Source: Jannaschia sp. Os4 (lineage in GTDB: Bacteria; Pseudomonadota; Alphaproteobacteria; Rhodobacterales; Rhodobacteraceae). Taken from it: 64,000 bases of DNA. Each line of letters begins with the position of its first letter. Positions within the stretch are counted from its first letter, which is position 1. The position numbers and the translations under genes are program-made. The notes beneath the pieces were generated by a model that worked only from the letters and a program-made list of their open reading frames with translations, made no database searches and was not told the origin of the DNA. Of the stretch, positions 49,568-64,000 are shown one piece after another. Location of the stretch: contig NZ_JAFCAR010000002.1 in assembly GCF_016820245.1 (NCBI RefSeq), forward strand, positions 62,001 through 126,000. Reading direction: 5' to 3'.

Positions 49568-49658
49568 GTCGGGCGCTATCGGCGGTGGCGGCATCCCGAG
49601 TCAACAACGGGGTGCGACACTCCGTTCCCCCGCCCCCGGGACGATGCGTCCGGGGGCG

Positions 49659-51992
49659 TCACCCGATCGCCTCGATCCCCCAGATATCGGCCATGTAGCC
49701 CCGGATCGTCCGGTCCGACGAGAACCAGCCCGACCGCGCCACGTTGCGCGCCGCCATCCCGGTCCAGCCGTCCCCCGCGAAGGCCTCGTCCGCCGCCCGC
49801 TGCGCCCGCCAGTAGTCCGCGAAGTCCGACGCCACGAGGAAGTAGTCCGGCCCCGCCACGTTGTCCGCGATCCAGCCGTGCCCGTCGCCGAACGCCCCCG
49901 AGCGCACGGCGTCCAGCGCGCGGGCCAGCCGGGGCTCGTCGGCGATGGCCTTCGCCGCGTGGTGGTCGACGGCGCGCCGCGCGTCCACCTCGTCGGCCTT
50001 CAGCCCGAACAGGAAGAAGTTCTCCGCGCCCACGTGCTCCCGGATCTCGACGTTGGCGCCGTCCAGCGTCCCCACCGTCACCGCGCCGTTGAGCGCGAAC
50101 TTCATGTTGCCGGTGCCCGACGCCTCCTTTCCGGCGGTGCTGATCTGCTCGGACAGGTCGGCGGCGGGGATCAGGCGCTCGGCCAGCGTCACGTTGTAGT
50201 TGGGCGGATAGACCACCTGCAGCAGGTCGCGCGTCACCGGGTCCGCGTTGATGACCCTAGCGGCGTCGTTGATCAGCCGGATGATCCCCTTGGCGAAGTG
50301 GTAGCCCGGCGCCGCCTTGCCCCCGAACACCTTCACCCGCGGCGTCCAGCCCGCCCCCGGATCGTCGCGCATCGCCTGCCACAGCGCGACCGTCTCCAGC
50401 AGGTTGAGGTGCTGGCGCTTGTACTCGTGGATGCGCTTGATCTGGACGTCGATCATCGCCGCCGGGTCGATCCGCACGCCCGTCCCCGCCAGCCACGCGG
50501 CGAGGTCGGCCTTGTTCGCCCGCTTCACCGCGTCGAACCGCTCGAGGAAGCCCGCGTCGTCCACCGGGAGGTCCGCGAGGCGTTCGAGGTCCGCCTGCCA
50601 GCCCTCGCCCACCGCCTCGGTCAGCAGCGCGGCGAGGCGTGGGTTGCATCCTTGGATCCACCGGCGCGGCGTGACCCCGTTCGTCTGGTTCACGATCCGG
50701 TCCGGGTGCAGCCGGTGCAGTTCGGCGAAGACGGACCTGGTCATCAGGTCCGAGTGCAGCGCCGACACCCCGTTCACCTTGTGCGCCATCACGAAGGCCA
50801 GCGGCCCCATGCCCACTTGCCCGTGCTCGCGGATGGCGACCTTGCGGTCCGGCGCCCGCGCCGCATGCCACTCGTCGATCATCGCGATGATCTCGGCATG
50901 GCGCGGCAGCAGGTGCGCCATCAGCCCCTCGGACCACCGCTCCAGCGCCTCGGGCAGCAGGGTGTGGTTCGTGTAGGCGAGGCAGCGGCGCGCCACGTCC
51001 ACCGCCTCCTCGAAGGACAGCCCCCGCTCGTCGTGCAGCAGGCGGACCAGTTCCGGCCCCGCGATGGCCGGGTGCGTGTCGTTGAGCTGGACCGCCACGC
51101 GGTCGGGCAGGTCCTCGGTCGCGATCCCGTCGGTCAGGTCCGCGAGCGCGGCGGCGGTGAAGAAGTATTCCTGCCGCAGGCGCAGCTCCTCGCCCGCCGG
51201 GTTGTTGTCGTCCGGGTAGAGCACCCGCCCGATGGCCCGCGCCGCCATCTCGCCCGACTGCGCGCCGACGTGGTCGCCGCCGTTGAACCGCCCGAGGTCG
51301 AACGGATCGACCGCGCGCGGCTGCCACAGGCGCAGCACCGCGGCGTGCTGGCCGCCCCAGCCCGGCACCACGAGGTCGTGCGGCTCGGCCTCCAGCACCT
51401 CGGCGGGGCGCCAGCGCGCGCGGTCCCCGTGCTCGACATGGCCCCCAAAGCCCACCATGCGCCGCGCGGCGGGCTGCTCGACGGCCCAGACCGGGCGGCG
51501 GCGCAGCCAGTCCTCCGGCTCCTCCACCTGGTGCCCGTCCTCGAAGCGCTGCCGGAACAACCCGTGCTCGTAGAGGATGCCGTGCCCCATCGCGGGCGCC
51601 CCGATGGTCGCCAGCGACTCGAGGAAGCACGCCGCCAGCCGCCCCAGCCCGCCATTGCCCAGCGCCGGGTCCGGCTCCTCGTGGAACACCGCGTCGGGCG
51701 CGAAGCCCAAGGCCTCGATCTGCGCGCGCGCGTCGTCCAGCAGCCCGAGGTTCGACAGCCCGTCCTCCAGCACCCGGCCCACGAGGAACTCCATCGACAG
51801 GTAATGCACCCGCTTCATCGTCCCCGCCGCGTCGTCCGTCGCCAGCCGCAGCGCCGCCAGCCGGTCGTTCAGCGCCAGCGACAGCGCCACCCGCACGTCG
51901 TCCGGCGAGGCCGTCGCGGGCGTGGCGTGGACGCGGGCGAGCGCCGCATGGAGGTCGAGCGGGGCCGTCGTCACGGGGGCATGGGCGTTCAT
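49659..51992 (-). CDS. glgP: Glycogen/starch phosphorylase
   Basis: Releases glucose-1-phosphate from glycogen ends. 777 residues. The pyridoxal-phosphate lysine lies in EASGTGNMKFALNGA, with RVHYLSMEFLVGR near residue 60 and PDPALGNGGLGRLAACF after it. VQIKRIHEYKRQHLNLL is the other signature. Slightly shorter than E. coli GlgP (815) but complete. It has both degradation (glgP, glgX) and synthesis (glgA, glgB, glgC) genes downstream on the same strand. Confidence 0.96.
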   Translation of the reverse strand: MNAHAPVTTAPLDLHAALARVHATPATASPDDVRVALSLALNDRLAALRLATDDAAGTMKRVHYLSMEFLVGRVLEDGLSNLGLLDDARAQIEALGFAPDAVFHEEPDPALGNGGLGRLAACFLESLATIGAPAMGHGILYEHGLFRQRFEDGHQVEEPEDWLRRRPVWAVEQPAARRMVGFGGHVEHGDRARWRPAEVLEAEPHDLVVPGWGGQHAAVLRLWQPRAVDPFDLGRFNGGDHVGAQSGEMAARAIGRVLYPDDNNPAGEELRLRQEYFFTAAALADLTDGIATEDLPDRVAVQLNDTHPAIAGPELVRLLHDERGLSFEEAVDVARRCLAYTNHTLLPEALERWSEGLMAHLLPRHAEIIAMIDEWHAARAPDRKVAIREHGQVGMGPLAFVMAHKVNGVSALHSDLMTRSVFAELHRLHPDRIVNQTNGVTPRRWIQGCNPRLAALLTEAVGEGWQADLERLADLPVDDAGFLERFDAVKRANKADLAAWLAGTGVRIDPAAMIDVQIKRIHEYKRQHLNLLETVALWQAMRDDPGAGWTPRVKVFGGKAAPGYHFAKGIIRLINDAARVINADPVTRDLLQVVYPPNYNVTLAERLIPAADLSEQISTAGKEASGTGNMKFALNGAVTVGTLDGANVEIREHVGAENFFLFGLKADEVDARRAVDHHAAKAIADEPRLARALDAVRSGAFGDGHGWIADNVAGPDYFLVASDFADYWRAQRAADEAFAGDGWTGMAARNVARSGWFSSDRTIRGYMADIWGIEAIG

Positions 51993-52100
51993 CGGGCAGG
52001 TCCAGCGAAGGGGGGTCGGATTGCGCTAACGGGCGGCGGCGCGGGGCGGAAGGGCCAAGCGACGGGAGCGGCGGGTTTCCCCGACCCCGTCGCATCGACG

Positions 52101-53711
52101 TCACGTCGTGGCGGGCACGTCCCCGTCGAGATAGGCGTGGCCCGAAGGCGGCAGGGTCAGCACCCCGTCCGACAGGTCCGCGTGGCGCGGCCCGGTCAGC
52201 GCCGCGTCGCCCACCGTCACGGCCTTCGCCTCGCTCGACAGGTTGAACAGGCAGGTCAGCGCCGCGCCGTCCTTCTCCCGCACGAAGCCGAGCAGCGGCT
52301 CGGGCAGGTCGAGGAAACGCGTCGTCCCCAGCCGGAGCACCTCCGACCCCTGCCGGAACGCGATCGCCGCGCGGTAGGCGTGCAGCACGGAGTCGTTCGA
52401 CGCCTCCTGCGCGTCCACTGCGCGCGCCGCCTGCTCGGGGCGGACCGGCAGCCACGGCGTCCCCCCGGAGAACCCGGCGTGGTCGGCCCCGGCCTCCCAC
52501 ACCATCGGCGTCCGGCACCCGTCGCGGCCCTTGATCTCCGGCCAGAAGCGCAGCGCCTGCGGGTCCGTCAGCTCGCCATACTCCAGCTCGGTCTCGGTCT
52601 GCCCGACCTCCTCGCCCTGGTAGATGCCCACCGACCCCTCGAAGGCCATCAGCATCGCCACCGCCTGCTTGGCCACCGCGTCCACGCTCTCGCCATGCGC
52701 CGCCCAGCGCGTCGCGTGCCGCACCACGTCGTGGTTCGAGAACGACCACGACGGCCACCCGTCCGGCGCCAGCCGCCGGAACCCCTCGATCTGCTTGCGG
52801 AAGTGGGCGGCGGTGAAGTCCCAGCCCAGCATCTCGAAGCTGTAGGTCATGTGCAGGCGGCCCGGCTCGGTGTACTCGGCCATCAGCTCGATGGCCTTGT
52901 CCCCGTCGTCGCCCACCTCGCCCATCAGCGCGCGGTCGTCGTACTCGTCCGTCATCGCCCGCATCCGCTCGAGGAAGGGGACGTTCTCCGGCTGGTTCTT
53001 GGAATGCACGTGGGTCTGGAACCCGTAGATCGTCATGGCCCGGTCCCGCTGCGCCTGCGGGGCGGGGGGGTCGGAGCGCAACCGCGCGTCGTGGAAGTAG
53101 TAGTTCACCGTGTCCAGCCGGAACCCGTCCACCCCCCGCTCCAGCCAGAAGCGCATGGTGTCGAGCATCGCGGCGCGGACCTCCGCGTTGTGGAAGTTCA
53201 GGTCCGGCTGCGACGCGAGGAAGTTGTGGAAGTAGTATTGCCGCCGCGCCGGCTCCCAGTCCCAAGCCGGTCCGCCGAAGATGCCCGCCCAGTTGTTCGG
53301 CGGGCTGCCGTCCTCCTGCGGGTCGGCCCAGACGTACCAGTCCGCCTTGGGGTTGTCGCGCGAGCGGCGCGACTCCTCGAACCACGGATGCCGGTCCGAC
53401 GAGTGCGAGATCACCTGGTCGATCACGACCTTCAGGCCCAGCCCGTGCGCCCGCGCCACGAGCGCGTCGAAGTCCGCCAGCGTGCCGAACAGCGGGTCCA
53501 CGTCGCCGTAGTCGCTGACGTCGTAGCCCATGTCGTCCTGCGGGCTGGTGAAGAACGGCGACAGCCAGATGCCGTCCACCCCCAGCGAGGCCACGTGGTC
53601 CAGCCGCCGCGTGATCCCCGGCAGGTCGCCCACCCCGTCGCCCGTGCTGTCCTGGAACGAGCGCGGGTAGATCTGGTAGATCACCGCGCCCCGCCACCAT
53701 TCGTCCGCCAT
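52101..53711 (-). CDS. Alpha-glucosidase (GH13)
   Basis: 536 residues, oligosaccharide hydrolase. WWRGAVIYQIYPRSFQDSTGDGVGDL opens the barrel. GVDGFRLDTVNYYFHD has the nucleophile Asp, LMGEVGDD the acid Glu, and FSNHDVVRHATRW the transition-state residues. The ATG is 7 bp after GAGGAG; a GTG directly before it is less well spaced. It heads the glycogen operon (108 bp before glgP). The family cleaves terminal alpha-1,4 or alpha-1,6 glucose from maltose or isomaltose-type sugars; it is not trehalose-specific on visible motifs. Confidence 0.92.
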   Translation of the reverse strand: MADEWWRGAVIYQIYPRSFQDSTGDGVGDLPGITRRLDHVASLGVDGIWLSPFFTSPQDDMGYDVSDYGDVDPLFGTLADFDALVARAHGLGLKVVIDQVISHSSDRHPWFEESRRSRDNPKADWYVWADPQEDGSPPNNWAGIFGGPAWDWEPARRQYYFHNFLASQPDLNFHNAEVRAAMLDTMRFWLERGVDGFRLDTVNYYFHDARLRSDPPAPQAQRDRAMTIYGFQTHVHSKNQPENVPFLERMRAMTDEYDDRALMGEVGDDGDKAIELMAEYTEPGRLHMTYSFEMLGWDFTAAHFRKQIEGFRRLAPDGWPSWSFSNHDVVRHATRWAAHGESVDAVAKQAVAMLMAFEGSVGIYQGEEVGQTETELEYGELTDPQALRFWPEIKGRDGCRTPMVWEAGADHAGFSGGTPWLPVRPEQAARAVDAQEASNDSVLHAYRAAIAFRQGSEVLRLGTTRFLDLPEPLLGFVREKDGAALTCLFNLSSEAKAVTVGDAALTGPRHADLSDGVLTLPPSGHAYLDGDVPATT

Positions 53712-53794
53712 CACCGCGCTCCTCGCTCCGCACCCGAAGCGCCCCTATCCCCGCGGGGTTCCCTCCGGAAGCGCTTTCAAGCGAAACGTGACCT

Positions 53795-54811
53795 TCAGCC
53801 CCAGAGCGCCGCCTCCGGCACCGACACCGTCCCGTCCACCGCGACGATCCCCGGCGCCTCGTCCTCCGCCAGCCAGAGCGGCCCGTCCAAATCGACCGGA
53901 TCGGCCCCGGCGGCCGCCGCCAGCACCGCCCCCGGCGCCATCGCCAGCGACGAGCCCAGCATGCAGCCCACCATGACCGACAGCCCCGCCGCCCGCGCCG
54001 CCGCCGCGTCCACCAGCGCCCGCGTCAGCCCGCCGGTCTTGTCCAGCTTCAGGTGCACCGCGTCGTAGGCCCGCGCCAGCGCCGCCATGTCGGCGTCCTT
54101 GCGGCACGACTCGTCGGCGCAGAGCACCAGCCCCTCCAGCGCCCCGTCGGCCCGCAGCCGCTCCAGCATCGGCTCGGACCCCTCCGGCACGGGCTGCTCC
54201 ACCAAGTCGACCCGCGCCGCGCGGCAGGCGTCGAGCAGGTCGTCCAGCTGCCCCTCCGGCGTCCCCTCGTTGGAATCCGTCATCAGCCACGCCTCCGGCC
54301 GCGCGTCCCGCACCGCGCGGATGCGGTCGCCGTCGCGCCCGTCGCCTTGGCCCAGCTTCACCTTGATCGCGTCCGTCGGCAGGGTCCGGGCCGCGGCGGC
54401 CATCGCCGCCGGATGGTCGATCGACAGCGTCAGCACCGAGCGCATCGCCCCCGGCGCGGGCACGCCCGCGATCTCCCAGACGCGCCGCCCCTCCAGCTCG
54501 GCCTGCAGGTCCCACAGCGCGCAGTCCAGCGCGTTGCGCGCGGCGCAGGGCGGCGCGGCGGCCAAGAGACCTGCCCGCGCCGTCTCCGGCCCCTGCCGCA
54601 GCGCGTCCGACAGCCAGCCCGCCATCCCCTCGACCTGCGCGGCCACGCCCTCGGGCGTCTCGCCGTAGCGGGCGTAGGGCGCGCACTCCCCGCGCCCCGC
54701 CGCACCCTCCCATTCGACGCGGCACCGCACGACCGGCTGCTCGGTCCGCGCGCCCCGCGCGATGGCGAAGGTCCGCGCCAGCGGCAGGCGGTGGACCGCG
54801 ACGCTCAGCAT
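53795..54811 (-). CDS. Enolase-superfamily epimerase, DgcA-like (N-acetyl-D-glutamate racemase / dipeptide epimerase family)
   Basis: 338 residues. Enolase superfamily barrel with catalytic IKVKLGQ (KxK), metal ligands in MTDSNEG, VEQPV and LCADES, and HLKLDKTGG (KxxK). This pattern is classed as dipeptide (Ala-D/L-Glu) epimerase. Located directly after a DUF1611 gene, it matches the dgcN-dgcA pair described for marine Proteobacteria, in which D-glutamate is N-acetylated and then epimerised to N-acetyl-L-glutamate. Its ATG overlaps the preceding stop by 7 bp. Ordinary annotation as a cell-wall dipeptide epimerase is the alternative. Confidence 0.78.
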   Translation of the reverse strand: MLSVAVHRLPLARTFAIARGARTEQPVVRCRVEWEGAAGRGECAPYARYGETPEGVAAQVEGMAGWLSDALRQGPETARAGLLAAAPPCAARNALDCALWDLQAELEGRRVWEIAGVPAPGAMRSVLTLSIDHPAAMAAAARTLPTDAIKVKLGQGDGRDGDRIRAVRDARPEAWLMTDSNEGTPEGQLDDLLDACRAARVDLVEQPVPEGSEPMLERLRADGALEGLVLCADESCRKDADMAALARAYDAVHLKLDKTGGLTRALVDAAAARAAGLSVMVGCMLGSSLAMAPGAVLAAAAGADPVDLDGPLWLAEDEAPGIVAVDGTVSVPEAALWG

Positions 54812-55806
54812 CTCTGCAGCTCGGCCACGATGGCATCGACGCCGAAGCGCACCGGGTCCGTGGTCGGCAGCCCGTGCTCCGCCTCGATCCCGGCCAGCAC
54901 CTCGCGCGCCTCCGCCTCCGACAGCGCGGCGGTGTTCACGCAGATGCCAGCGGGCGCGATGTCCGGGTTCGTCACCCGTCCCATCAGCACCGTGGCGTCG
55001 ATTACCTGCCGGATCGTCGGCAGCGGCGCCTCGACGCCCCGCATGTGCGTCCGCGTCGGCTCGTGGCACACGACGAAGCGGTCCGGCTGCGCCCCGTGCA
55101 GCAGGCCCAGCGTCACCCCCGCGAAGGACGGGTGGAACAGCGAGCCCTGCCCCTCCACCACGTCCCAATGGTCGGGGTCCGCGTCGGGCGTCAGCCATTC
55201 GGCCGCGCCCGCGATGAAGTCGGCCGCCACCGCGTCCACGGCCACGCCCCGCTCCGCGATCAGGCGCCCGGTCTGGCCCGTCGCGCGGAAGTCCGCGTCC
55301 ATCCCCGCCGCGCGCATCCCCTTCTCCAAGGCCAGCGCGGTGTACTTCTTGCCGACCGAGCAGTCGGTCCCCACGGCCAGCACCCGCTTGCCCGACCGCT
55401 TGGTCCCCTTGCCGGTGGCATAGACCCGGTCGGGCAGGCGCAGGTCCGTGAGGTGCCGCCCCTGCCGGTCCGCGATCTCGCCGAGGTCGGCCACGTCGCG
55501 CAGGCGCACGTGCATCCCCGCCGCGATGTCCAATCCCGCATCCAGCGCCCGGCGCAGGTCGTCGATCCACGCCTCCGGCAGCACCCCGCCCGCGTTGACC
55601 ACGCCGACCACCAGCGTGCCGACGCCCGCCGCCACCGCCTCCTCCGGGGTCATGTCCGGCAGGTCCAGCCGCACCTGCGCCCCGTCGCGCCGCCATTGCG
55701 CCGCGCACCACTCGGGGCGCCAATCGAGCACGCCCTGCCCCATCTTCAGGGCCAGCTTGTCCGGCGCGTCGCCGAGATACAGCAGGTAGGGCTTCGTCAG
55801 GCTCAT
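54805..55806 (-). CDS. DUF1611 protein, DgcN-like D-glutamate N-acetyltransferase
   Basis: 333 residues. An N-terminal Rossmann-like domain (about 1-130) precedes a P-loop-like domain beginning ILAVGTDCSVGKKYTALALEKGMR-type sequence (about 145-165). Also present are WDVVEGQGSLFHPSFAGVTLGLLHGAQPD and VCHEPTRTHMRG, both characteristic of DUF1611. In marine Proteobacteria DUF1611 next to an enolase-superfamily epimerase has been assigned to D-glutamate N-acetylation (DgcN). It lies in an array with TRAP transporter and D-amino-acid dehydrogenase-like genes. Not experimentally tested here. Confidence 0.75.
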   Translation of the reverse strand: MSLTKPYLLYLGDAPDKLALKMGQGVLDWRPEWCAAQWRRDGAQVRLDLPDMTPEEAVAAGVGTLVVGVVNAGGVLPEAWIDDLRRALDAGLDIAAGMHVRLRDVADLGEIADRQGRHLTDLRLPDRVYATGKGTKRSGKRVLAVGTDCSVGKKYTALALEKGMRAAGMDADFRATGQTGRLIAERGVAVDAVAADFIAGAAEWLTPDADPDHWDVVEGQGSLFHPSFAGVTLGLLHGAQPDRFVVCHEPTRTHMRGVEAPLPTIRQVIDATVLMGRVTNPDIAPAGICVNTAALSEAEAREVLAGIEAEHGLPTTDPVRFGVDAIVAELQRC

Positions 55807-55858
55807 CGGATCCTCCGCGCGGGTCGCCCCCGCGTCCTGCGCCCGCCCCGCGCGGCGA

Positions 55859-56863
55859 TCAAGCGCCGTCCGCGACCACCGCGCGGGCGATTTCGTCCAT
55901 CAGGCCGACGAGGTCGCCGAAATATCCGCCCGAGCGCGCGGGCCGCGTCGGGTCCGAGGTGATGGCGACCGTCAGCCCGAGGTCCGGCACCACGGCCAGC
56001 ACCTGCCCGCCATAGCCCCGCCCGTAGGCCGCGAAGCGTCCGCCCAGCCGGGTCAGGAACCAGCCGTAGCCGTAGGAGTCGCCCGACCACGGGGACCGCG
56101 CGCGCGCCTCCCACGAGGTCCGCAACCACGCCGCCGGCACGACCCGCGCGCCGTCCCACGTGCCGCCCTGCCGCACCATCTCGCCCACGCGGGCGAGGGC
56201 GCGCGGCGTCAGCGCCATCTGGTTGCCCCCGAGGTAGCGCCCCTGCGGGTCGCGCTCCCAGCGCGGCAGGTCGATCCCCAGCGGCGCCGCAAGCCAGTCG
56301 GTGGCGAGGTCGTGCAGGTCCCGCCCCGTCGCCTCCGCCAGCACCGCGCCCAGCACGTGCCACGTCCCCGTCGAGTAGGTGAACCGCCCGCCCGGCGCGC
56401 CCGTGGGCTCGGCGTCCAGCACGTAGCCCACCCAGTCGTCGCTCCCGACCCACGCGCCGTAGTTCGGCCCCGAGGTCGAGGGCAGCCCCGTCCGCATCGA
56501 CAGCAGGTGCCCGACCGTCAGGTCGTCGCGCGCGTCCCCCGCAGGCGCCCGGCCCAGCAGGGGCAGAACCCGCGCCTCCGGCCCCGCCAGATGCCCCCGC
56601 TCGATGGCGATCCCGGTCAGCAGCGCGAGCAGCGTCTTGGACACCGACTTCACGTTCGCCACTCGGGCAAGCCCCGGCCCGCGCGGCGCCGTCGCCAGCA
56701 CCTCCGCCCCGTCCCGCATCACGATCAGCGCGTGCAGTTGCTCCAGCCCCGCCGCCCGCGCCGCGACCCCCTCCAGCGCGGCCCCCTGCGCGCGGAGCAG
56801 GGAAGGCGCCACGACGGGCGCGGCGAGGAGCGGGGCGAGCAGGGCGCGGCGGGACAGGGTCAT
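55859..56863 (-). CDS. Exported serine hydrolase of the beta-lactamase/D-aminopeptidase (S12) family
   Basis: 334 residues. A twin-arginine-like N-terminus (SRRALLAPLLAAPVV) suggests Tat export. Active-site SxxK is S73-V-S-K76, followed by HLLSMRTGLPS, the Y163-S-T element (Tyr kept, Asn replaced), and a Gly-rich GRGYGGQ near 285. The family includes beta-lactamases, D-Ala-D-Ala carboxypeptidases, esterases and D-aminopeptidases. Its neighbours handle D-amino acids, so D-amino-acid release from peptides is an attractive but unproven role. It starts 117 bp downstream of the dctM stop, with dispersed-repeat copy 3 in between, and 52 bp before dgcN-like. Confidence 0.75.
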   Translation of the reverse strand: MTLSRRALLAPLLAAPVVAPSLLRAQGAALEGVAARAAGLEQLHALIVMRDGAEVLATAPRGPGLARVANVKSVSKTLLALLTGIAIERGHLAGPEARVLPLLGRAPAGDARDDLTVGHLLSMRTGLPSTSGPNYGAWVGSDDWVGYVLDAEPTGAPGGRFTYSTGTWHVLGAVLAEATGRDLHDLATDWLAAPLGIDLPRWERDPQGRYLGGNQMALTPRALARVGEMVRQGGTWDGARVVPAAWLRTSWEARARSPWSGDSYGYGWFLTRLGGRFAAYGRGYGGQVLAVVPDLGLTVAITSDPTRPARSGGYFGDLVGLMDEIARAVVADGA

Positions 56864-56919
56864 CGCGGGGAGGTGGGGCCGGGGTCCCCGGATGGAAAGG
56901 ACGCCCTCACGGTATCGTC

Positions 56920-56976
56920 ACCCCCCTTTCTTGGCGGAAATATCCCGGGGGTCCGGGGGCTGGCCCCCGGCGCCCC
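56920..56976 (+). repeat. Dispersed intergenic repeat, copy 3
   Basis: The box TTGGCGGAAATA (56931-56942) is followed by a perfect 8-bp stem CCGGGGGC-TG-GCCCCCGG (56953-56970). It starts just after the dctM stop in transcription order; read toward the serine hydrolase, the order is hairpin, box, start codon 67 bp away. Confidence 0.75.
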
Positions 56977-56979
56977 CCG

Positions 56980-58284
56980 CTACCGCTGCCGGATCGTCTC
57001 CGGCAGCCACGTCGCCAGCTGCGGGAACGCCACGAGGATCACCACCATCAGCAGCATCAGCCCCACCATCGGCAGCGCGACGCGTGCGATGTAGCCGATG
57101 TCGTGCCGCGTCATCCCCTGCAGCACGAAGAGGTTGAACCCGATGGGCGGCGTCACCTGCGCCATCTCCACGACGACGACCACGAAGATGCCGAACCAGA
57201 TCAGGTCGATCCCCGCCTGCCGCACCATCGGCTCGACGATGGCCATGGTCAGCACGACGGACGAGATGCCGTCGAGGAACATGCCGAGGATGATGTAGAA
57301 CACCGTCAGCGCCGCGATCAGCGTGATCGGCGACAGGCCCATCCCGTCGATCCACGCCGCCAGCGCGCGGGGCAGGCCGGTGAACCCCATCGAGAGCGAC
57401 AGGAACGCCGCCCCCATCAGGATCAGCGCGATCATGGCGCTCGTCCGCGTCGCCCCCATCAGCGCCGTGGCGAAGGTCGTCCAGTTCAGCGACCCTTGCG
57501 CGAAGGCCAGCACCAGCGCCCCGATCACGCCCACGGCGGCGGCTTCGGTCGCGGTGGCGTAGCCCAGATACATGGACCCGATCACGGCCGTCACCAGCAG
57601 CAGCACGGGGATCAGGAAGCGCGACTCGGCCAGCGTCTCGCCCCAGCCCATGCGCGGCTCGGGCGCGGGCCGCTGGTCGGGCCGCACGTAGTGCCACCCC
57701 ACGATGTAGAGCGCGAAGAGCGAGGCCAGCACGAGGCCGGGGATCACCCCCGCCATGAAGAGCTGCGTGATGCTCTCGTTGATCGACACCCCGTAGACGA
57801 TCAGCGTCAGCGAGGGCGGGATCATCAGGCCCAAGGTCGCCGCCCCCGCCAGCGTCCCGATGATCATCGGCTCGGGATAGCCGCGCCGCCGCAGTTCCGG
57901 GATCGACATCTTGCCCACCGTCGTCAGCGTCGCCGCCGACGACCCCGACACGGCCGCGAAGATCGTGCAGCCCGCGATGTTGGTGTGCAGCAGCCCGCCC
58001 GGCAGCCCGCGCAGCCACGGCGCCAGCCCCCGGAACATGTCCTCCGACAGCCGCGTGCGATACAGGATCTCGCCCATCCAGATGAACAAGGGCAGCGCCG
58101 TCAGCGTCCACGACGAGGACGCCGCCCAGATCATCGTCACCATCGCGTCGCCCGCCGGCCGCGTGGTGAACAGCTCCATCCCCACCCACGCCACGCCCAT
58201 CAGCGCCAGCCCGACCCAGACGGACCCGCCCAAGAGCGCGAACAGCACGAACAGGAACACCGCCGTCGCCATCAACTCGGTCAT
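56980..58284 (-). CDS. TRAP transporter large permease (DctM)
   Basis: 434 residues, about 12 membrane segments; the DctM/DedA-type large subunit of a Na+-driven TRAP importer. Segments include GCTIFAAVSGSSAATLTTVG, LGLMIPPSLTLIVYGV and the C-terminal VTPPIGFNLFVLQG. Its start overlaps the small permease stop (ATGA). Together with DctP and DctQ it imports an organic acid; D-glutamate or another acidic amino acid is suggested only by neighbours. Confidence 0.95.
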   Translation of the reverse strand: MTELMATAVFLFVLFALLGGSVWVGLALMGVAWVGMELFTTRPAGDAMVTMIWAASSSWTLTALPLFIWMGEILYRTRLSEDMFRGLAPWLRGLPGGLLHTNIAGCTIFAAVSGSSAATLTTVGKMSIPELRRRGYPEPMIIGTLAGAATLGLMIPPSLTLIVYGVSINESITQLFMAGVIPGLVLASLFALYIVGWHYVRPDQRPAPEPRMGWGETLAESRFLIPVLLLVTAVIGSMYLGYATATEAAAVGVIGALVLAFAQGSLNWTTFATALMGATRTSAMIALILMGAAFLSLSMGFTGLPRALAAWIDGMGLSPITLIAALTVFYIILGMFLDGISSVVLTMAIVEPMVRQAGIDLIWFGIFVVVVVEMAQVTPPIGFNLFVLQGMTRHDIGYIARVALPMVGLMLLMVVILVAFPQLATWLPETIRQR

Positions 58285-58973
58285 TCCACCACCTCCCCGC
58301 GGATCGCCGTCTCGCGCGTGGCCAAGAGCCGCGTCAGCATGTCCCACAGGCACGCCGCCAGCAGGATCGCCCCCGCCGACATGGCCAGCTGCGGGATCCA
58401 GATCGGCGTGTAGACCCAGCCCTCCGCCGCCCCGATTCCCGCGAGGTCCAAGGAGAACAGCGCCACCACCCATTCCGGCAGGTAGTCCTGCCCCTGCGTC
58501 CGGTCGTTCAGCATCTCCGACAGGATGTTCGCCTTCACCGCGAACCGCGCGAAGTAGGTGGCCGTGAGCGCGGCGATCCACGTCGCCACCGCGTCCAGCC
58601 CGTAGGTGAAGCGGGGGCTCGGCACGTTCAGCAGGATGCCCACCCGGATATGCGCCCCCCGCGTCAGCGCGTGGGCCAAGGCGAAGAACGACGTCGCCGC
58701 CATCGCGTAGCCCGCGTAGTTCGTCGACCCCGAGAAGGTGATTCCCGCCCAGCGCGCGATCATCTGCGCCACGATCAGCCCGAGGATCGTCACCATCCCG
58801 CAGGCCGCCACCACGCCCGCGGCCAGGTAGACCCGGTCCAGCACCCGCCAGACGGGCCGCAGCGCGGCGGCCATCGGCCCCGGCGCCACCGCGCAGGCGA
58901 CGGCCAAGAGCGTCGGCAGAACGAATAGCCACGCCCACAGCGGCAGCCCCAGCCACGGTTGCCAGTCCCTCAT
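58281..58973 (-). CDS. TRAP transporter small permease (DctQ)
   Basis: 230 residues, with about four membrane helices in the core (LDRVYLAAGVVAACGMVTILGLIV, SGSTNYAGYAMAATSFFALAHAL with the usual RGAHIRVGI loop) and an extra N-terminal helix. Longer than the typical 160-180 residues because of that extra N-terminal segment and a C-terminal extension. It precedes dctM with a four-base overlap. Three hairpins separate it from dctP. Confidence 0.9.
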   Translation of the reverse strand: MRDWQPWLGLPLWAWLFVLPTLLAVACAVAPGPMAAALRPVWRVLDRVYLAAGVVAACGMVTILGLIVAQMIARWAGITFSGSTNYAGYAMAATSFFALAHALTRGAHIRVGILLNVPSPRFTYGLDAVATWIAALTATYFARFAVKANILSEMLNDRTQGQDYLPEWVVALFSLDLAGIGAAEGWVYTPIWIPQLAMSAGAILLAACLWDMLTRLLATRETAIRGEVVE

Positions 58974-58996
58974 GCGACCCCTCTCATGCGAACGCC

Positions 58997-59125
58997 CCGG
59001 CCCCCGGGCCGGAGCCTCCCTCGAACCCCTGCGCCATCCTCGCGGAGCGGGAGGCGTCTGTCGATGGAGGCCCCGGCCCGCGGCCGGGGCGTGTGGTCCC
59101 GCGGCCCCGCATGGGGCCGCGGACC
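58997..59125 (-). promoter_or_regulatory. Hairpin-rich spacer between dctP and dctQ
   Basis: In transcription order after the dctP stop: a stem of 13 pairs with one bulge (59095-59125, loop GCAT), a perfect 9-bp stem GCCCCGGCC/GGCCGGGGC (59070-59090), a GCCTCCC/GGGAGGC pair (59014-59020 and 59049-59055), and CCGGCCC/GGGCCGG (58997-59012). No T-run follows. It probably attenuates transcription or stabilises the dctP 3' end, as in the ABC operon spacer at 26545-26642. Confidence 0.6.
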
Positions 59126-59127
59126 GG

Positions 59128-60099
59128 TCAGTTGCCCATGTACGCGTCCATGATCGCCTGTCCCGCCTCGCCCGTGTCGGCCAGCCACTGCTCCTGCATC
59201 GACGCGCCGATCTCCTGCAGCTGGTCCGCGAACGCGCCGCTGGCGTCCGTCACGGTCATGCCGTTCTTCTCCAGCTCCTCGAAGTAGAAGTTGGTCAGCT
59301 CCTCGGACTTGGCGCGGCACGCCTCGCCCGTCTCGGCGGCGGCCTGCTCCACGCCCGCGCGCACCTCGTCGGACAGCTCGTCCCACGCGCCCGCGTTCAC
59401 CATGACGTAGTTGCGCGGCATCCACGCGTTGACCTTGTAGTAGTGGGACAGGTGCTCCCACACCTTGCGGTCGTAGCCCGTCGCGCCCGACGAGATGAAC
59501 GCCTCCGCCACGCCCGTCGCCAGCGCCTGGGACAGCTCGGCGGCCTCCACCTGCACCGGCACCATGCCCAGCGCCTCGGCGAAGGTCGCCGTCGCCGTGT
59601 TGTAGGAGCGGAACTTCACGCCCTGCGTGTCGTCCGACGACTCCACCGCCTTGTTGAAGTAGAAGCCCTGCCCCGGCCACGGACAGGTGTAGAGCACCAC
59701 GAGGTTCTGCTCGCCCAGCACCTCCTCGACGGTCGGCTTGGCCGCCTGCCACAGCGCCTCGTTCTCGTCGAAGGAGGTCGCCACGAAGGGCACGTTGTCC
59801 CACGCGAGGATCGGATCCTCGTTGGCATGCGCCGACATCAGGCGCTCGCCGATCGGCACCTGCCCGGTCTGCACGGCGCGCTTGATCTCGCCGCCCCCGA
59901 ACAGGCTGCCGCCCGGATGGACCGTGATGTCCAGCGCGCCGTCCGTGTACTCGCGCACCTTGTCCGCGAACTCGACGCCCATCTCCGAGTGGAAGTTGGA
60001 GGCCGAGTAGGCCATCGGCATGTCCCACGCGGTCGCGTGCCCGTCGGCCAGCGCGCCGGTCGCCACCATCGCCAGAGCGGCGGTCATCATCGTCTTCAT
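59128..60099 (-). CDS. TRAP transporter substrate-binding protein (DctP)
   Basis: 323 residues. A signal peptide (MKTMMTAALAMVATGALA) precedes the mature start DGHATAWDMPMAYSASNFHSE. The DctP fold includes ITVHPGGSLFGGGEIKRAVQTG and VKFRSYNTATATFAEALGM, with the conserved Arg for carboxylate binding. It lies 31 bp after the FAD dehydrogenase-like gene on the same strand, so co-transcription is likely. Substrate undetermined. Confidence 0.93.
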   Translation of the reverse strand: MKTMMTAALAMVATGALADGHATAWDMPMAYSASNFHSEMGVEFADKVREYTDGALDITVHPGGSLFGGGEIKRAVQTGQVPIGERLMSAHANEDPILAWDNVPFVATSFDENEALWQAAKPTVEEVLGEQNLVVLYTCPWPGQGFYFNKAVESSDDTQGVKFRSYNTATATFAEALGMVPVQVEAAELSQALATGVAEAFISSGATGYDRKVWEHLSHYYKVNAWMPRNYVMVNAGAWDELSDEVRAGVEQAAAETGEACRAKSEELTNFYFEELEKNGMTVTDASGAFADQLQEIGASMQEQWLADTGEAGQAIMDAYMGN

Positions 60100-60130
60100 C
60101 GTTTCTCTCCCCGTCGGACTCGGTTCGGTC

Positions 60131-61363
60131 CTAGACGAACCTAAGCGGATCGAAGGGCGCCCTGTCCACGTTCGATCTTCGCCCCGCGATCACGTCCGCC
60201 ACCATGCGCCCCGTCTTCGGCCCCGCCGTCAGGCCGACGTGATGGTGCCCGAAGGCCGCGATCACGCCCGTCTCCCGCACCTCCCCGATCAGCGGCAGGC
60301 TGTCGGACGGCGCGGGACGGAAGCCCAGCCACGCCTCGTCCGGCTCCGCCGTCAGGCCGGGGAAGGTTTCCCGCACCCGCCGCCTCATCAGGTCCAGCGC
60401 GGGCCTCGACCGCGCGCCGTCCATGCCCCCCAACTCCACGATCCCCGCGCAGCGCAGCCCCGCCGCGACGGGGGTGGCGACGAACTTCGCCCCCGCCAGC
60501 ATCAGCGGGATCGAGGGCCGCACCTCCGGCGCGCGCCACACGAGGTGATACCCCCGCTCGGCGGCCAAGGGCACGTCGATCCCCAGCCGCATCATCAACG
60601 GCCCCGACCACGCCCCCGCGGCCACCACGACCCGGTCGCAGGGGATCGGCCCCTCCCCGGTCTCGACCGCCACGACGCGCCCGCCCTCCAGCGTCACGTC
60701 CCGCACCTCCGCGCGGCGCACCGTCCCGCCCTCGCGCTCCAGCTGCGCGGCCAAGGCGGCGACGTAGCCGCCGGGGTCCAGCACCATCCCATGCTCGCGC
60801 AGCACCGCCATCAGCCCCGCCGCCGGCCCCAAGGACGGCTCCCGCTCCCGCACGGCGGCGCCCTCGACGATCTCCGGCACGAACCCGGCTGCGGCGCGCA
60901 GGCCCCAGCCATAGGCGTCCGCCTCCCACGCCGCCCGGTCCGCATAGACGTAGGCGTAGTCGCAGGCCGCGAGGTATCGCGCCGCCTCGGTCCCCGCCGC
61001 CAAGGCCTCGTGCTGCTCCACGCTGTCGGCGACGACATGCGCCAGCCCGTCGGCGATCCGCGCCGTGTCGGCGGCGTTCGCGTGGGACAGATACCGCGCC
61101 AGCCACCCCGCCATCCCCGGCAGCTTGGCCCAGCGCAGGAACAACGGCTCGCTAGGGTCCAGCGCCATCCGCAGCCCCCGCCGCATCAGCCCCGGCGTCG
61201 TCACCGGCACGACCGAGCACCGCGCGAGCACCGCCCCGTTGCCGTAGGACGCCCCCGCCGCCGGCCCCTCGCGGTCCACCAGCACCACCTCGTGCCCGTC
61301 CCGCCGCGCCCAGAGCGCCGACGCCACGCCCACGATCCCCGCCCCGATCACCACGACCTTCAT
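60131..61363 (-). CDS. FAD-dependent D-amino acid dehydrogenase-like oxidoreductase (DadA family)
   Basis: 410 residues. MKVVVIGAGIVGVASALWARRDGHEV is the FAD-binding start, RGYHLVW and AFGHHHVGLTAGPKTGRMVADV are typical of DadA/DAO-fold amine oxidases. Family members oxidise D-amino acids to 2-oxo acids with release of ammonia and pass electrons to the membrane quinone pool. It heads the array dadA-like - dctP - dctQ - dctM - hydrolase - dgcN - dgcA, divergent from an Asp/Glu racemase gene. Sarcosine or glycine oxidase activity remains possible. Confidence 0.85.
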   Translation of the reverse strand: MKVVVIGAGIVGVASALWARRDGHEVVLVDREGPAAGASYGNGAVLARCSVVPVTTPGLMRRGLRMALDPSEPLFLRWAKLPGMAGWLARYLSHANAADTARIADGLAHVVADSVEQHEALAAGTEAARYLAACDYAYVYADRAAWEADAYGWGLRAAAGFVPEIVEGAAVREREPSLGPAAGLMAVLREHGMVLDPGGYVAALAAQLEREGGTVRRAEVRDVTLEGGRVVAVETGEGPIPCDRVVVAAGAWSGPLMMRLGIDVPLAAERGYHLVWRAPEVRPSIPLMLAGAKFVATPVAAGLRCAGIVELGGMDGARSRPALDLMRRRVRETFPGLTAEPDEAWLGFRPAPSDSLPLIGEVRETGVIAAFGHHHVGLTAGPKTGRMVADVIAGRRSNVDRAPFDPLRFV

Positions 61364-61397
61364 GGGCCGACGCTGCCGCCCGCCCCGCGCACCGTCC

Positions 61398-61446
61398 ACC
61401 CCCCTTTCTTGGCCGAAATATCCCGGGGTCCGGGGCAGCGCCCCGG
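61398..61446 (+). repeat. Dispersed intergenic repeat, copy 4
   Basis: TTGGCCGAAATA (61409-61420), then CCGGGGC-AGC-GCCCCGG (7-bp perfect stem, 61430-61446). It lies in the divergent spacer between the FAD dehydrogenase and racemase genes; the box is 45 bp from the dehydrogenase start, with the hairpin on the far side. Confidence 0.75.
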
Positions 61447-61493
61447 TCGCCCTCCGCCTTCCCGAACGGCCCGGAATCGCGCACACCGCCCCC

Positions 61494-62192
61494 ATGATCG
61501 GCATCCTCATGCTCGACACGCGCTTCCCCCGCCCGCCGGGCGACGCGGGGAATCCCGCGACGTGGCCCTTCCCCGTCACCATCCGCCGCGTCCCCGGCAC
61601 CACGCCCGAGGCCGCCGTCCGCCGCGACCCGGACGCCCTCCTCGACGCCTTCGCCGCCGAAGGCCGCGCGCTGGTGGCCGGGGGCTGCGCCGGGCTGGCG
61701 ACGACCTGCGGCTTCCTCGCCCCGCTCCAGTCCCGCCTCGCCGCCGCCTGCGGCGTGCCGGTCGTCGCCTCCGCGCTGACCCTCTGCGCCCCCTTGGCCG
61801 CGACGGTCCCCGGCGGGCGGGTCGGCATCCTCACCATCGAGGCCGCCTCCCTGACCCCCGCCCACCTCCACGCCGCCCGCGTCCCCGAGGGCACCCCCGT
61901 CGAGGGCCTCGACGGCACCCACATGGCCGACCGCATCCTGTGCGATTCGCCCGACCTCGACGTCGCGCGGGCCCGCGTCGAGATGGTCGCCGCCGCCCGC
62001 CGCCTCGCCGCCCGCGCGCCGCTCGGTGGGATCGTCCTCGAATGCGCGAACATGGGCCCCTACGCGGCGGACGTAGCCGCCGCGACCGGGCTGCCGGTCC
62101 ACTCGATCCTGACCGCCGTGGGGTGGCTCCACGCCGGGCTGCGGCCCAGTGCATGGGCGCATCCGCCGGGGGTGCCCCTCGTTACAAGGTAA
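61494..62192 (+). CDS. Aspartate/glutamate racemase-family protein
   Basis: 232 residues. Two catalytic-type cysteines are placed as in this superfamily: C72 in ATTCGFLAP and C184 in LECANMGPYA. GRVGILTIEAASLTPAHL separates the two halves. Cofactor-independent racemases, hydantoin racemases and maleate isomerases share this fold, so the substrate is open. It is divergent from the DadA-like gene, consistent with amino acid stereochemistry as the theme. The start is the ATG of MIGILMLDTRFP; an upstream open stretch has no support. Confidence 0.8.
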   Translation: MIGILMLDTRFPRPPGDAGNPATWPFPVTIRRVPGTTPEAAVRRDPDALLDAFAAEGRALVAGGCAGLATTCGFLAPLQSRLAAACGVPVVASALTLCAPLAATVPGGRVGILTIEAASLTPAHLHAARVPEGTPVEGLDGTHMADRILCDSPDLDVARARVEMVAAARRLAARAPLGGIVLECANMGPYAADVAAATGLPVHSILTAVGWLHAGLRPSAWAHPPGVPLVTR

Positions 62193-62213: not shown

Positions 62214-63056
62214 TTACAGTATCACAGGGCGCATCGCCTCCAGCACCGTCTCCGGGGCCTCCTCGTGGGCCAGATGCCCCAGCCCACCGAGCACCTGCAG
62301 CGAGGCGTCGGGCAGCCGCGCCAACATCTCCCGGCTCACCTTCGGCGGCACGGTCCCGTCCCTGTCGCCGGCCAGCAGCAGCACCGGCGCCCCGTGCCGC
62401 GCCGCGTCCCGGTGCAGCCGCCGCAGGTCCCACGACGCCATCTTCGCGAGCGCCCCGGACACGTGCGCCCGGTCCGACAGCAGCGCGTGATAGAGGCGCA
62501 GCCCCTCCTCGTCGATCCGGCTCCCCGTCCGCTCCAAGAGCTGGCGCGTCCGCCGCGGCGACGACATCGCGGTGAACAGCGGGACGGTCAGCGGGTTCAC
62601 CGCCAAGGCCTTGGCCATGAAGGGAAACAGCCACGCCGCGAAGCCGTCGAACAGCGCCCACGCCCCGTTGATCGCCGCCACGGGCCGCGGCCCCCGGTCG
62701 AGCGACAGCCGCAGCGCGACCGTCGCTCCGGCTGAGTGCCCGACGAGGGCGGACGGCTCCACCTCCAGCACGTCCAGCAACGTCCCCAGATCCTCCGCCA
62801 TCGCGTCCAGCCCCGCCCGCCCCGGCACCGACGTGGTAAACCCGTGCCCCGGCAGGTCGACCGCGATGCAGTCGTGCGTCTCGGCCAAGAGCGGCATCAG
62901 GCCACGCCACGAATGCGTCGCCGCCCCCGCCCCGTGCAGCAGCAGCAGCACCGGCCCCTGTCCCATCCGCTGCACGTGCCACCGATGCGGCCGCGCATCC
63001 ACGAAGCGGCTGTGCGCGGCGTGGGGCCAGCGGTCGGCCCACTCGCTCCAGTTCAC
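62214..63056 (-). CDS. bchO: Alpha/beta hydrolase BchO (magnesium chelatase-associated)
   Basis: 280 residues, alpha/beta hydrolase with nucleophile S108 (VGHSAGATVAL), the HGAGAATHSW oxyanion loop, acid in AGDRDGTVPP and His in GGLGHLAHEE. The identification as BchO rests on its position directly after bchD, with a GTG start overlapping the bchD stop (GTGA), and on the BchO-like N-terminus NWSEWADRWPHAAHSRFVDA. Its exact biochemical role in bacteriochlorophyll synthesis is unsettled. Last gene at this edge of the photosynthesis cluster; convergent with the racemase gene, 21 bp away. Confidence 0.88.
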   Translation of the reverse strand: MNWSEWADRWPHAAHSRFVDARPHRWHVQRMGQGPVLLLLHGAGAATHSWRGLMPLLAETHDCIAVDLPGHGFTTSVPGRAGLDAMAEDLGTLLDVLEVEPSALVGHSAGATVALRLSLDRGPRPVAAINGAWALFDGFAAWLFPFMAKALAVNPLTVPLFTAMSSPRRTRQLLERTGSRIDEEGLRLYHALLSDRAHVSGALAKMASWDLRRLHRDAARHGAPVLLLAGDRDGTVPPKVSREMLARLPDASLQVLGGLGHLAHEEAPETVLEAMRPVIL

Positions 63057-64000
63057 AGCGCGTCCACCAGCCGCCCCTTGTCCGCGCGCGGCAGCGGGAT
63101 GCACGGCCCGTCCATCAGGCCCGCGAGGTCGCGCAGTTGCGGCGTCGGGCGGGTGCCGGTGTCGACCACGAGCGCGGGCACGCCGCGCGACCGGACGAGG
63201 CGGGACATGGCCTCGGCGTCGGACCACGCCTGCGGGCGGCCCGGCGTGCCGTCGCGCGCCACGTTGGGCCGCCCGTCGGTCATCAGCACCAGCGCGGGGT
63301 CGAGGCCGTGGCGCCGGGCCTGCAGCGAGAGCGTCAGCGCGGCCTCCAGCCCCGCAGCCAGCGGCGTCCCCCCGCCGCCGGGCAGCCCGGCGAGGCGGCG
63401 CTTGGTGCGCACGAGCGAGCGGGTCGGCGGCAGCAGCACCTCGGCCCCGTGCCCCCGGAAGCCCACCAGCGCGACTTGGTCCCGCTTGGCGTAGGCCTCG
63501 GCCAAGAGCAGCTCGACCGCGCCCTTCGCCTCGGCCAGCCGGTGCGCGGCGGCGGAGCCGGAGGCGTCGACGACGAACACGACCAGCCGCTCGGAGCGGT
63601 CCTCGTGGCGGCGCCAGCGGAAGTCGGCGGCCCGAACCTTGAGGCCCGCCTGCAGCGATCCGCCCCGCAGACGCTGCCACGGGGCCGCGGCGCGCAGCGT
63701 GGCGAGCAGGTCGAGGCGGCGCCCGTCCCGGCGGCCCGGACGCGGCGGAAGCGGTCGGCCCCGCTTGGCGTCCCGGCGCGCCGCGCCGGAGCCGTCGCCC
63801 GAGGAGCGGTGCGTCGAGGCGAGGCGGGCGAGCAGGTCCTCGGGCAGGACCGCGCGGGCCGCGTCGAGCAGGCGGTCGGGGGCGGGGCCGGTGGCCTCGG
63901 CGCTCTCGCCTCCGGCCTCGCGCGGCTCGACGGGCGGGGGAGGGGGCGCGTCGGCCTCCTCCGCCTCCGGGAGGCGGGTGGCGCGCGGGGCGAGCACCGT
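63053..64000 (-). CDS. bchD: Magnesium chelatase subunit D (partial, N-terminus beyond window)
   Basis: BchD works with BchI and BchH to insert Mg2+ into protoporphyrin IX. About 315 C-terminal codons are present; the 5' end runs off the right edge. A Pro/Glu-rich acidic linker (PPPPPVEPREAGGESAE) precedes a von Willebrand A domain with MIDAS motif VVFVVDASGSAAAHRLAEAKGAV and the second MIDAS segment GGGTPLAAGLEAAL. The N-terminal AAA+ domain must lie beyond 64000. With bchO it shows that the organism makes bacteriochlorophyll. Confidence 0.93.
   Translation of the reverse strand, partial: TVLAPRATRLPEAEEADAPPPPPVEPREAGGESAEATGPAPDRLLDAARAVLPEDLLARLASTHRSSGDGSGAARRDAKRGRPLPPRPGRRDGRRLDLLATLRAAAPWQRLRGGSLQAGLKVRAADFRWRRHEDRSERLVVFVVDASGSAAAHRLAEAKGAVELLLAEAYAKRDQVALVGFRGHGAEVLLPPTRSLVRTKRRLAGLPGGGGTPLAAGLEAALTLSLQARRHGLDPALVLMTDGRPNVARDGTPGRPQAWSDAEAMSRLVRSRGVPALVVDTGTRPTPQLRDLAGLMDGPCIPLPRADKGRLVDAL

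Follow-up and report, generated by a model that had tools for sequence, protein, structure and literature searches.

A conserved dehydrogenase, TRAP transporter and racemase cassette beside dgcN-dgcA in Jannaschia sp. Os4, with pyroglutamate as the most likely imported compound

Eight genes in three probable units

The sequence analysed here, hereafter the window, is a 64,000-nt stretch of contig C2 from the 3.54 Mb genome of Jannaschia sp. Os4. It contains an island of eight genes (Table 1), which encode an amino acid dehydrogenase/oxidase dependent on flavin adenine dinucleotide (FAD) (DAO), the three parts of a TRAP transporter (DctP, DctQ and DctM), a serine hydrolase of family S12, DgcN, DgcA and, in divergent orientation, a racemase-superfamily protein (Race-1). 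All eight products exceed their own Pfam cut-offs (DAO PF01266; DctP PF03480; DctQ PF04290; DctM PF06808; S12 PF00144; DgcN PF07755 and PF17396, DUF1611; DgcA MR_MLE PF02746 and PF13378; Race-1 PF01177), and the families named in a preliminary description of the window are indeed all present. That description had read the genes as one complete module for scavenging D-amino acids. While its observation is confirmed, its interpretation is only partly supported: the island is probably composed of three adjacent units, namely the DAO-DctPQM genes with Race-1, the S12 gene, and the dgcN-dgcA pair, rather than one conserved module.

Homologous open reading frames (ORFs) of 226-228 residues at three other loci (L066, L069 and L072) make the ATG at 61494, giving 232 residues, a more likely start for Race-1 than 61362, which sets the divergent Race-1/DAO spacer at 130 bp. 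The racemase-family gene is present and divergent as described. A promoter scan of the island returned no promoter-like site (0.3 expected), and the two terminator-like sites found in the island are within chance (shuffle mean 1.5). The genes on the minus strand are separated by 31 bp (DAO-DctP), 154 bp (DctP-DctQ), 116 bp (DctM-S12) and 52 bp (S12-DgcN), with overlaps of 4 bp between DctQ and DctM, where the DctM ATG at 58284 lies over the DctQ stop, and of 7 bp between DgcN and DgcA. The seven genes said to run co-directionally from 61363 to 53795 do share that strand, but the run has no natural left edge, since the minus strand carries on, 80 bp beyond dgcA, with genes for an alpha-amylase-type glycosidase, an alpha-glucan phosphorylase and glgB (47384-53714, minus strand).

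Table 1 Genes of the island in window coordinates
Gene and assignment	Position	Strand	Basis
Race-1, two-cysteine Asp/Glu/hydantoin racemase superfamily (PRK07475), divergent	61494..62192	+	PF01177, NF005679, C73/C185
DAO type I, FAD-dependent amino acid dehydrogenase/oxidase, glycine oxidase/DadA-like	60131..61363	-	PF01266
DctP, TRAP solute-binding protein, pyroglutamate (DctP6/DctP7) subfamily	59128..60099	-	PF03480; similarity to 6wgm, 2pfz, 2pfy
DctQ, TRAP small permease	58281..58973	-	PF04290 46.6 bits
DctM, TRAP large permease	56980..58284	-	PF06808; TIGR00786 360 bits (cut-off 268)
S12 (class C beta-lactamase-like) serine hydrolase	55859..56863	-	PF00144, SVSK
dgcN, D-glutamate N-acetyltransferase family (DUF1611)	54805..55806	-	NF041892 496.9 bits (cut-off 480)
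dgcA-like, enolase-superfamily N-acetyl-D-glutamate racemase	53795..54811	-	NF042940 376 bits; motifs

The dehydrogenase and the racemase vary as a matched pair

DctP homologues (threshold E 1e-60) were found in 117 of 248 Rhodobacteraceae genomes, one per genus, at 121 places. Neighbours were tagged by tblastn and counted within 8 kb of DctP at 141 loci, divided into clade A (the window's own, DctP identity at least 66%, n=88), clade B (n=37) and clade C (n=16). The window was omitted from these loci, and eight duplicate-DctP loci and one identical contig (L171) were removed. The counts come from tblastn tags because the ORF caller misframed genes in very GC-rich loci; neighbourhood counts for S12, dgcN and Rid-like genes rest on ORF clusters. 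We also used an 80-locus DctP set with flanks of up to 10 kb, some shortened by contig ends. Of 40 loci added to the DctP set, 26 had been picked for linkage to the 5-oxoprolinase gene pxpA, which inflates the Pxp fractions of clades B and C given below.

The usual arrangement around DctP is DAO-DctP-DctQ-DctM with a racemase-superfamily gene, which is either Race-1 or a second type, Race-2. In clade A, DAO was tagged at 77 loci, Race-1 at 33 and Race-2 at 41; in clade B, DAO was tagged at 35 and Race-1 at 22, with DgcN and S12 at one locus each (the latter, L236, at 31% identity). DAO-DctPQM with a divergent racemase is a cassette common in marine Rhodobacterales, and on this point the preliminary description, which had paired the three, holds across loci. 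The clearest new observation is a near-strict pairing of DAO type with racemase type. Type I DAO stands with Race-1 in 35 loci, with Race-2 in 1 and with neither in 4, type II DAO with Race-2 in 36, with Race-1 in 0 and with neither in 2, and the other DAO types with Race-1 in 18 and with neither in 17 (types assigned by best match to tree-chosen references, which are themselves counted). Since the two enzymes vary together, they probably act on related compounds.

The trees of the transporter and of DAO disagree at the window. In the DctP and DctM trees the window and three congeners form a group of 4 rows (support of 99/100 and 99/97, respectively), and all three congeners carry type II DAO and Race-2. 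The DAO tree, by contrast, puts the window among the type I proteins (22 rows, support 100/100), and the window carries Race-1. The simplest reading of this discordance is that a matched DAO-racemase pair may have been swapped as a whole, the transporter remaining in place. The window DAO has an unusual composition, flagged together with four others including the three congeners, and a long branch (0.95); its placement therefore deserves a second method.

Race-1 scores 36.3 bits for PF01177 (cut-off 31) and 234.5 for NF005679 (PRK07475; cut-off 231), and its C73 and C185 are invariant in 20 aligned homologues; the Race-2 protein of relatives reaches 130 bits for PRK07475, under that cut-off, and has no Pfam match. 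A single-sequence search of the PDB with Race gave no match at E 1, and a profile search gave matches up to E 0.07, among them arylmalonate decarboxylase (E 0.0016), hydantoin racemase (0.016) and allantoin racemase (0.048), none of them strong enough to indicate a substrate. DAO scores 171 bits for PF01266 and is nearest, by profile, to glycine oxidase; an identity as DadA was rejected, with 173.3 bits for NF001933 against a cut-off of 383. The cassette resembles DadA/DadX, the alanine dehydrogenase-racemase pair, in joining a racemase to a flavin amino acid dehydrogenase. It differs in that the racemase is of the two-cysteine superfamily whereas that of the known pair is a pyridoxal phosphate enzyme, and in that the island DAO fails the DadA model. 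DadA and D-glutamate are a subject of PMC6131576.

Homologues of Race also occur apart from this TRAP. On an Agrobacterium plasmid a FAD-dependent oxidoreductase gene directly follows the Race homologue, and on Caballeronia and Chelatococcus plasmids FAD oxidoreductases lie several kb from it, in all three cases without this TRAP. The stretch examined around the homologue of Ruegeria pomeroyi DSS-3 holds neither DAO nor TRAP, while that of R. conchae holds a full TRAP-DAO cluster. Upstream of DAO in mid-clade operons (L077:11820-14638, minus strand; L254; L270), two genes recur, one for a muconate-cycloisomerase-like member of the enolase superfamily and one for an acetolactate-synthase-like thiamine pyrophosphate enzyme.

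Cargo of the importer and the link to 5-oxoprolinase

The best PDB matches of the window DctP are 6wgm (490 bits), 2pfz (259) and 2pfy (231), and the next best falls to 64 bits. Identity is 213/298 (71%) to 6wgm and 124/299 (41%) to the Bordetella pyroglutamate receptor 2pfz. An alignment of the window DctP, 6wgm and 2pfz shows 106 positions identical in all three, including R164, Y31, W141 and W226, and we read R164 as the putative TRAP arginine. The full-length similarity to 2pfz and 2pfy, together with the conserved arginine and aromatics, places the protein in the pyroglutamate subfamily. The closest match, 6wgm, is presumably a pyroglutamate-specific protein from a marine metagenome; a literature search on 6WGM returned no related paper. 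The original paper on the 2PFZ and 2PFY receptors is reportedly Rucktooa et al. 2007. According to the literature, 2PFZ and 2PFY were crystallised with pyroglutamic acid (PMC3454389), DctP7 binds 5-oxoproline with a KD of 0.3 uM and has a 5-oxoprolinase gene nearby (PMC13274462), and the TRAP arginine and pyroglutamate receptors are treated in PMC4646407, PMC11574862, PMC5812351 and PMC3610893. A search for work joining pyroglutamate, TRAP transporters and Rhodobacterales found nothing.

The most likely cargo of the importer is pyroglutamate (5-oxoproline) and not free D-glutamate. The preliminary description had proposed a D-glutamate importer; as DctP belongs with pyroglutamate receptors, we rejected D-glutamate, as well as a C4-dicarboxylate, as first choice. 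Like DctP6 and DctP7 of Bordetella pertussis (2pfz, 2pfy), which share its subfamily over the full length and the conserved TRAP arginine, the window DctP has a genomic link to 5-oxoprolinase, seen here in its relatives. Unlike them, the window dctP sits with DAO and a racemase, its identity to 2pfz is limited to the value above, and the 5-oxoprolinase of its genome lies elsewhere.

The linkage in relatives far exceeds chance. PxpA is present in 170 of the 248 genomes, and in at least 27 other genera it lies 1922-5237 bp from a DctP homologue, whereas about 0.6 would be expected (estimated from the 121 places and 20 kb of an assumed 4 Mb genome). Operons of the order DAO-DctP-DctQ-DctM-c5mem-PxpB-PxpC-PxpA occur, for example, at L229, L230, L233, L242, L245 and L248. 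Pxp genes lie near DctP in 16 of the 37 clade B loci, and in clade C DctP and DctM stand with PxpBCA at 12 of 16 loci, the DAO tag being found at 0 of 16. On an annotated plasmid of Leisingera caerulea, TRAP genes are followed by genes for allophanate hydrolase subunit 1 and urea amidolyase and then for 5-oxoprolinase subunit PxpA. As in the known clusters (E. coli pxpBCA, C. glutamicum pxpTABC), more distant relatives thus encode a transporter and 5-oxoprolinase together in operons; the differences are that a TRAP transporter takes the place of PxpT, that DAO and a racemase are added, and that the pxpBCA of the window genome is not adjacent.

Many of the 5-oxoproline operons also encode, between dctM and pxpB, a protein that we call c5mem, which is hydrophobic and some 310 residues long (L062:12556-13503, plus strand; L066:6357-7337, minus strand; L229 near 11.1 kb). 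The L062 protein has no Pfam or NCBIfam match and the L066 protein no NCBIfam match. Elsewhere in the window genome (G000:C3:636443-637975, L105) a hydantoinase B/OplAH-like gene lies, by eye, near a tricarboxylate-type binding-protein gene, a possible second lactam route.

We consider it fairly probable that the island holds two adjacent uptake and catabolism units beside an orphan S12 gene, and that the first unit, Race-1 with DAO and DctPQM, is the head of a pyroglutamate utilisation operon whose genes may be jointly transcribed. TRAP transporters are in general coupled to ion gradients. Periplasmic DctP would capture 5-oxoproline, which DctQM would import with the ion gradient, and the PxpABC 5-oxoprolinase would open the ring to L-glutamate; the genes for this enzyme lie directly downstream in many distant relatives and on another contig (C5, pxpBCA) here. 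Race-1 and DAO, as a matched pair, would most likely racemise and oxidise the imported compound or glutamate derived from it. In the second unit, DgcN would acetylate D-glutamate and DgcA would racemise the product to N-acetyl-L-glutamate. This reading offers a testable substrate, 5-oxoproline, for a TRAP binding-protein family found in nearly half of the genus representatives (117/248), and the comparison has brought to light a racemase-dehydrogenase pair that varies together.

Several observations weigh against the pyroglutamate operon. Among the island genes, Pfam and NCBIfam identified no 5-oxoprolinase gene. None of the at least 27 PxpA-linked loci falls in the window's DctP clade, 15 of them having 50-59% and 12 having 37-44% identity, and Pxp genes lie within 8 kb at only 3 of the 88 clade A loci. 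Across the 248 genomes, PxpA and DctP show no co-occurrence beyond chance (both present in 85; odds ratio 1.44, p 0.22), whereas DgcN is found in 107 of 117 DctP-positive and in 88 of 131 DctP-negative genomes (odds ratio 5.2, p 2e-6); these tests ignore phylogeny. The long branch and unusual composition of the window DAO also weigh against the reading. A DAO is moreover not expected to oxidise a lactam, which leaves its role unexplained. With the PxpA-linked loci outside the window's clade and no genome correlation, the ligand may have shifted. The importer of this clade might then carry another cyclic amino acid, of the proline or hydroxyproline type, to be converted directly by the racemase and DAO. 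A racemase with a DAO-fold dehydrogenase is a usual logic for such acids, and 6 loci have a Rid-like gene cluster close by; one member scores 66 bits, under its cut-off of 106. The 71% identity to 6wgm, presumed to be pyroglutamate-specific, and the 106 positions shared with 6wgm and 2pfz, among them the arginine and the aromatics, argue the other way, and we regard such a shift as improbable.

The dgcN-dgcA pair, the S12 hydrolase and readings that join them to the cassette

The dgcN-like gene adjoins a dgcA-like gene, as had been described, and DgcN passes the curated equivalog NF041892 (496.9 bits, cut-off 480). DgcA misses NF042940 (376 against 400 bits), which is nevertheless its best model, the L-Ala-D/L-Glu epimerase model scoring lower at 215; J. 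aquimarina DgcA reaches 415 bits, so the lineage is borderline for this model. The motifs KVK149, EQP204, ADES231 and KLDK254 are present in the window protein. DgcN-DgcA is described for Shewanella, and a Rhodobacteraceae isolate that grew on D-glutamate has the counterparts of both enzymes (PMC10845958, PMC11747546); D-amino acid use by Nautella is covered in PMC4836201; a literature search found no paper linking DUF1611 with D-glutamate. The island pair shares with this pathway the equivalog match of DgcN and the best model of DgcA. It differs in that DgcA is under its cut-off and in that the window dgcA has no adjacent D-amino-acid-transaminase-like gene, whereas a gene from one such protein cluster follows dgcA at 23 of 28 family dgcN loci (a similar L103 protein was identified as such). 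In J. aquimarina, a gene convergent with dgcA (L088:7358-8026, plus strand) is hydantoin-racemase-like by eye, has no NCBIfam match and lies behind ABC transporter-like genes.

DgcN is widespread, being present in 195 of the 248 family genomes, and its position beside this cassette is rare. Tags for DgcN, DgcA and S12 were found at 0 of 80 loci of the 80-locus set, and DgcN lay near DctP at 1 of the 141 tagged loci (L081 of genome G152, where dgcNA follows dctM at a distance of about 4 kb), which had been selected because of its dgcN linkage. Among 20 genomes of the genus, 3 have true DgcN (at least 76%) and five others have matches at 31-34%. In the two other congeners with true DgcN, dgcN and dctP are on separate contigs, and the flanks of each lack the other gene, some flanks being limited by contig ends; five congeners retain DctP at 74% or more without true DgcN. 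Downstream of dctM, where the window has S12-dgcN-dgcA, relatives have c5mem, c5mem-pxpBCA, Race-2 or none of these. The pair looks like a local addition, almost always absent at that spot in the relatives examined. The expectation that the gene set would be conserved in other Rhodobacterales is borne out for DAO, TRAP and racemase, and DgcN co-occurs with DctP genome-wide, but the adjacency of dgcN and dctP is not conserved.

The S12 protein scores 96.4 bits for PF00144, has SVSK from residue 73 (SxxK) and SRR from residue 4, and is possibly exported by the twin-arginine (Tat) route, judging from its sequence; its best PDB match is Lsa45 (67 bits). Homologues occur in 38 of the 248 genomes; on visual inspection, the window's is the only one found less than 20 kb from any of the listed DgcN or DctP places. 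Among twelve S12 neighbourhoods, no other gene family was common to at least three loci at the thresholds used. S12 co-occurs with DgcN (35 of 38 genomes; odds ratio 3.65, p 0.03, uncorrected for phylogeny) and not with DctP (odds ratio 0.89, p 0.86). Given the lack of a shared neighbour and of co-occurrence with DctP, S12 was rejected as a conserved partner.

These results bear directly on the single scavenging module, in which the TRAP transporter would import D-glutamate, S12 would free it from peptides, and DgcNA, DAO and the racemase would degrade it. The equivalog match of DgcN, the co-directional genes with short gaps (all but the racemase), the co-occurrence of DgcN with both DctP and S12, a DgcN match in 11 of 11 close-clade genera (weaker in G136) and the second dgcNA linkage in G152 speak for it. 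Against these stand the pyroglutamate subfamily of DctP, the absence of DgcN and S12 tags from the 80-locus set, the separate contigs of dgcN in both other congeners, the five congeners with DctP but without true DgcN, and the variable context of S12, and we judge the module unlikely. In a high-GC genome, a run of genes on one strand is not necessarily a module.

The DgcN co-occurrences nonetheless leave room for a metabolic connection of pyroglutamate with D-glutamate. PxpABC is presumably L-specific, and Race-1 might racemise 5-oxoproline for it while DgcNA and DAO take D-glutamate, which would make the adjacency of dgcNA functional. More speculatively, Race-1 and Race-2 would be 5-oxoproline racemases with a co-evolving flavin dehydrogenase, by which marine Rhodobacterales would use D-pyroglutamate originating in cell-wall D-glutamate; the Jannaschia pair would then have been exchanged as a unit, with dgcN-dgcA placed downstream as a second route from D- to L-glutamate. 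The co-variation of Race and DAO and the co-occurrence of DgcN with DctP fit such a pathway, as do the hydantoin and allantoin racemases among the Race profile matches, although they rank below arylmalonate decarboxylase and all are too weak to name a substrate. According to PMC5339696, a mammalian cyclase converts D-glutamate to 5-oxo-D-proline, and human excretion of this D form greatly exceeds that of the L form. Should D-5-oxoproline be accepted by the importer or by Race, both the cassette and dgcNA would lead to L-glutamate, and use of D-5-oxoproline would amount to a marine recycling route for a product of cell-wall D-glutamate. The terms 'pyroglutamate racemase' and '5-oxoproline racemase' appear in none of the papers among the matches listed by a search for D-pyroglutamate and racemase. 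Race-1 homologues occur without this TRAP in the Ruegeria pomeroyi, Caballeronia, Chelatococcus and Agrobacterium stretches, dgcNA linkage is rare, and the L-specificity of PxpABC is presumed. Both the pathway and its bolder extension seem to us rather doubtful, and the pyroglutamate operon with a separate dgcN-dgcA pair is preferred.

Beyond Race-1, at 62217-63997 on the minus strand, lie bchO (302 bits, cut-off 173) and the C-terminal part of the gene for Mg-chelatase subunit D (bchD), which is ended by the window edge; the two are probably the border of a photosynthesis gene cluster.

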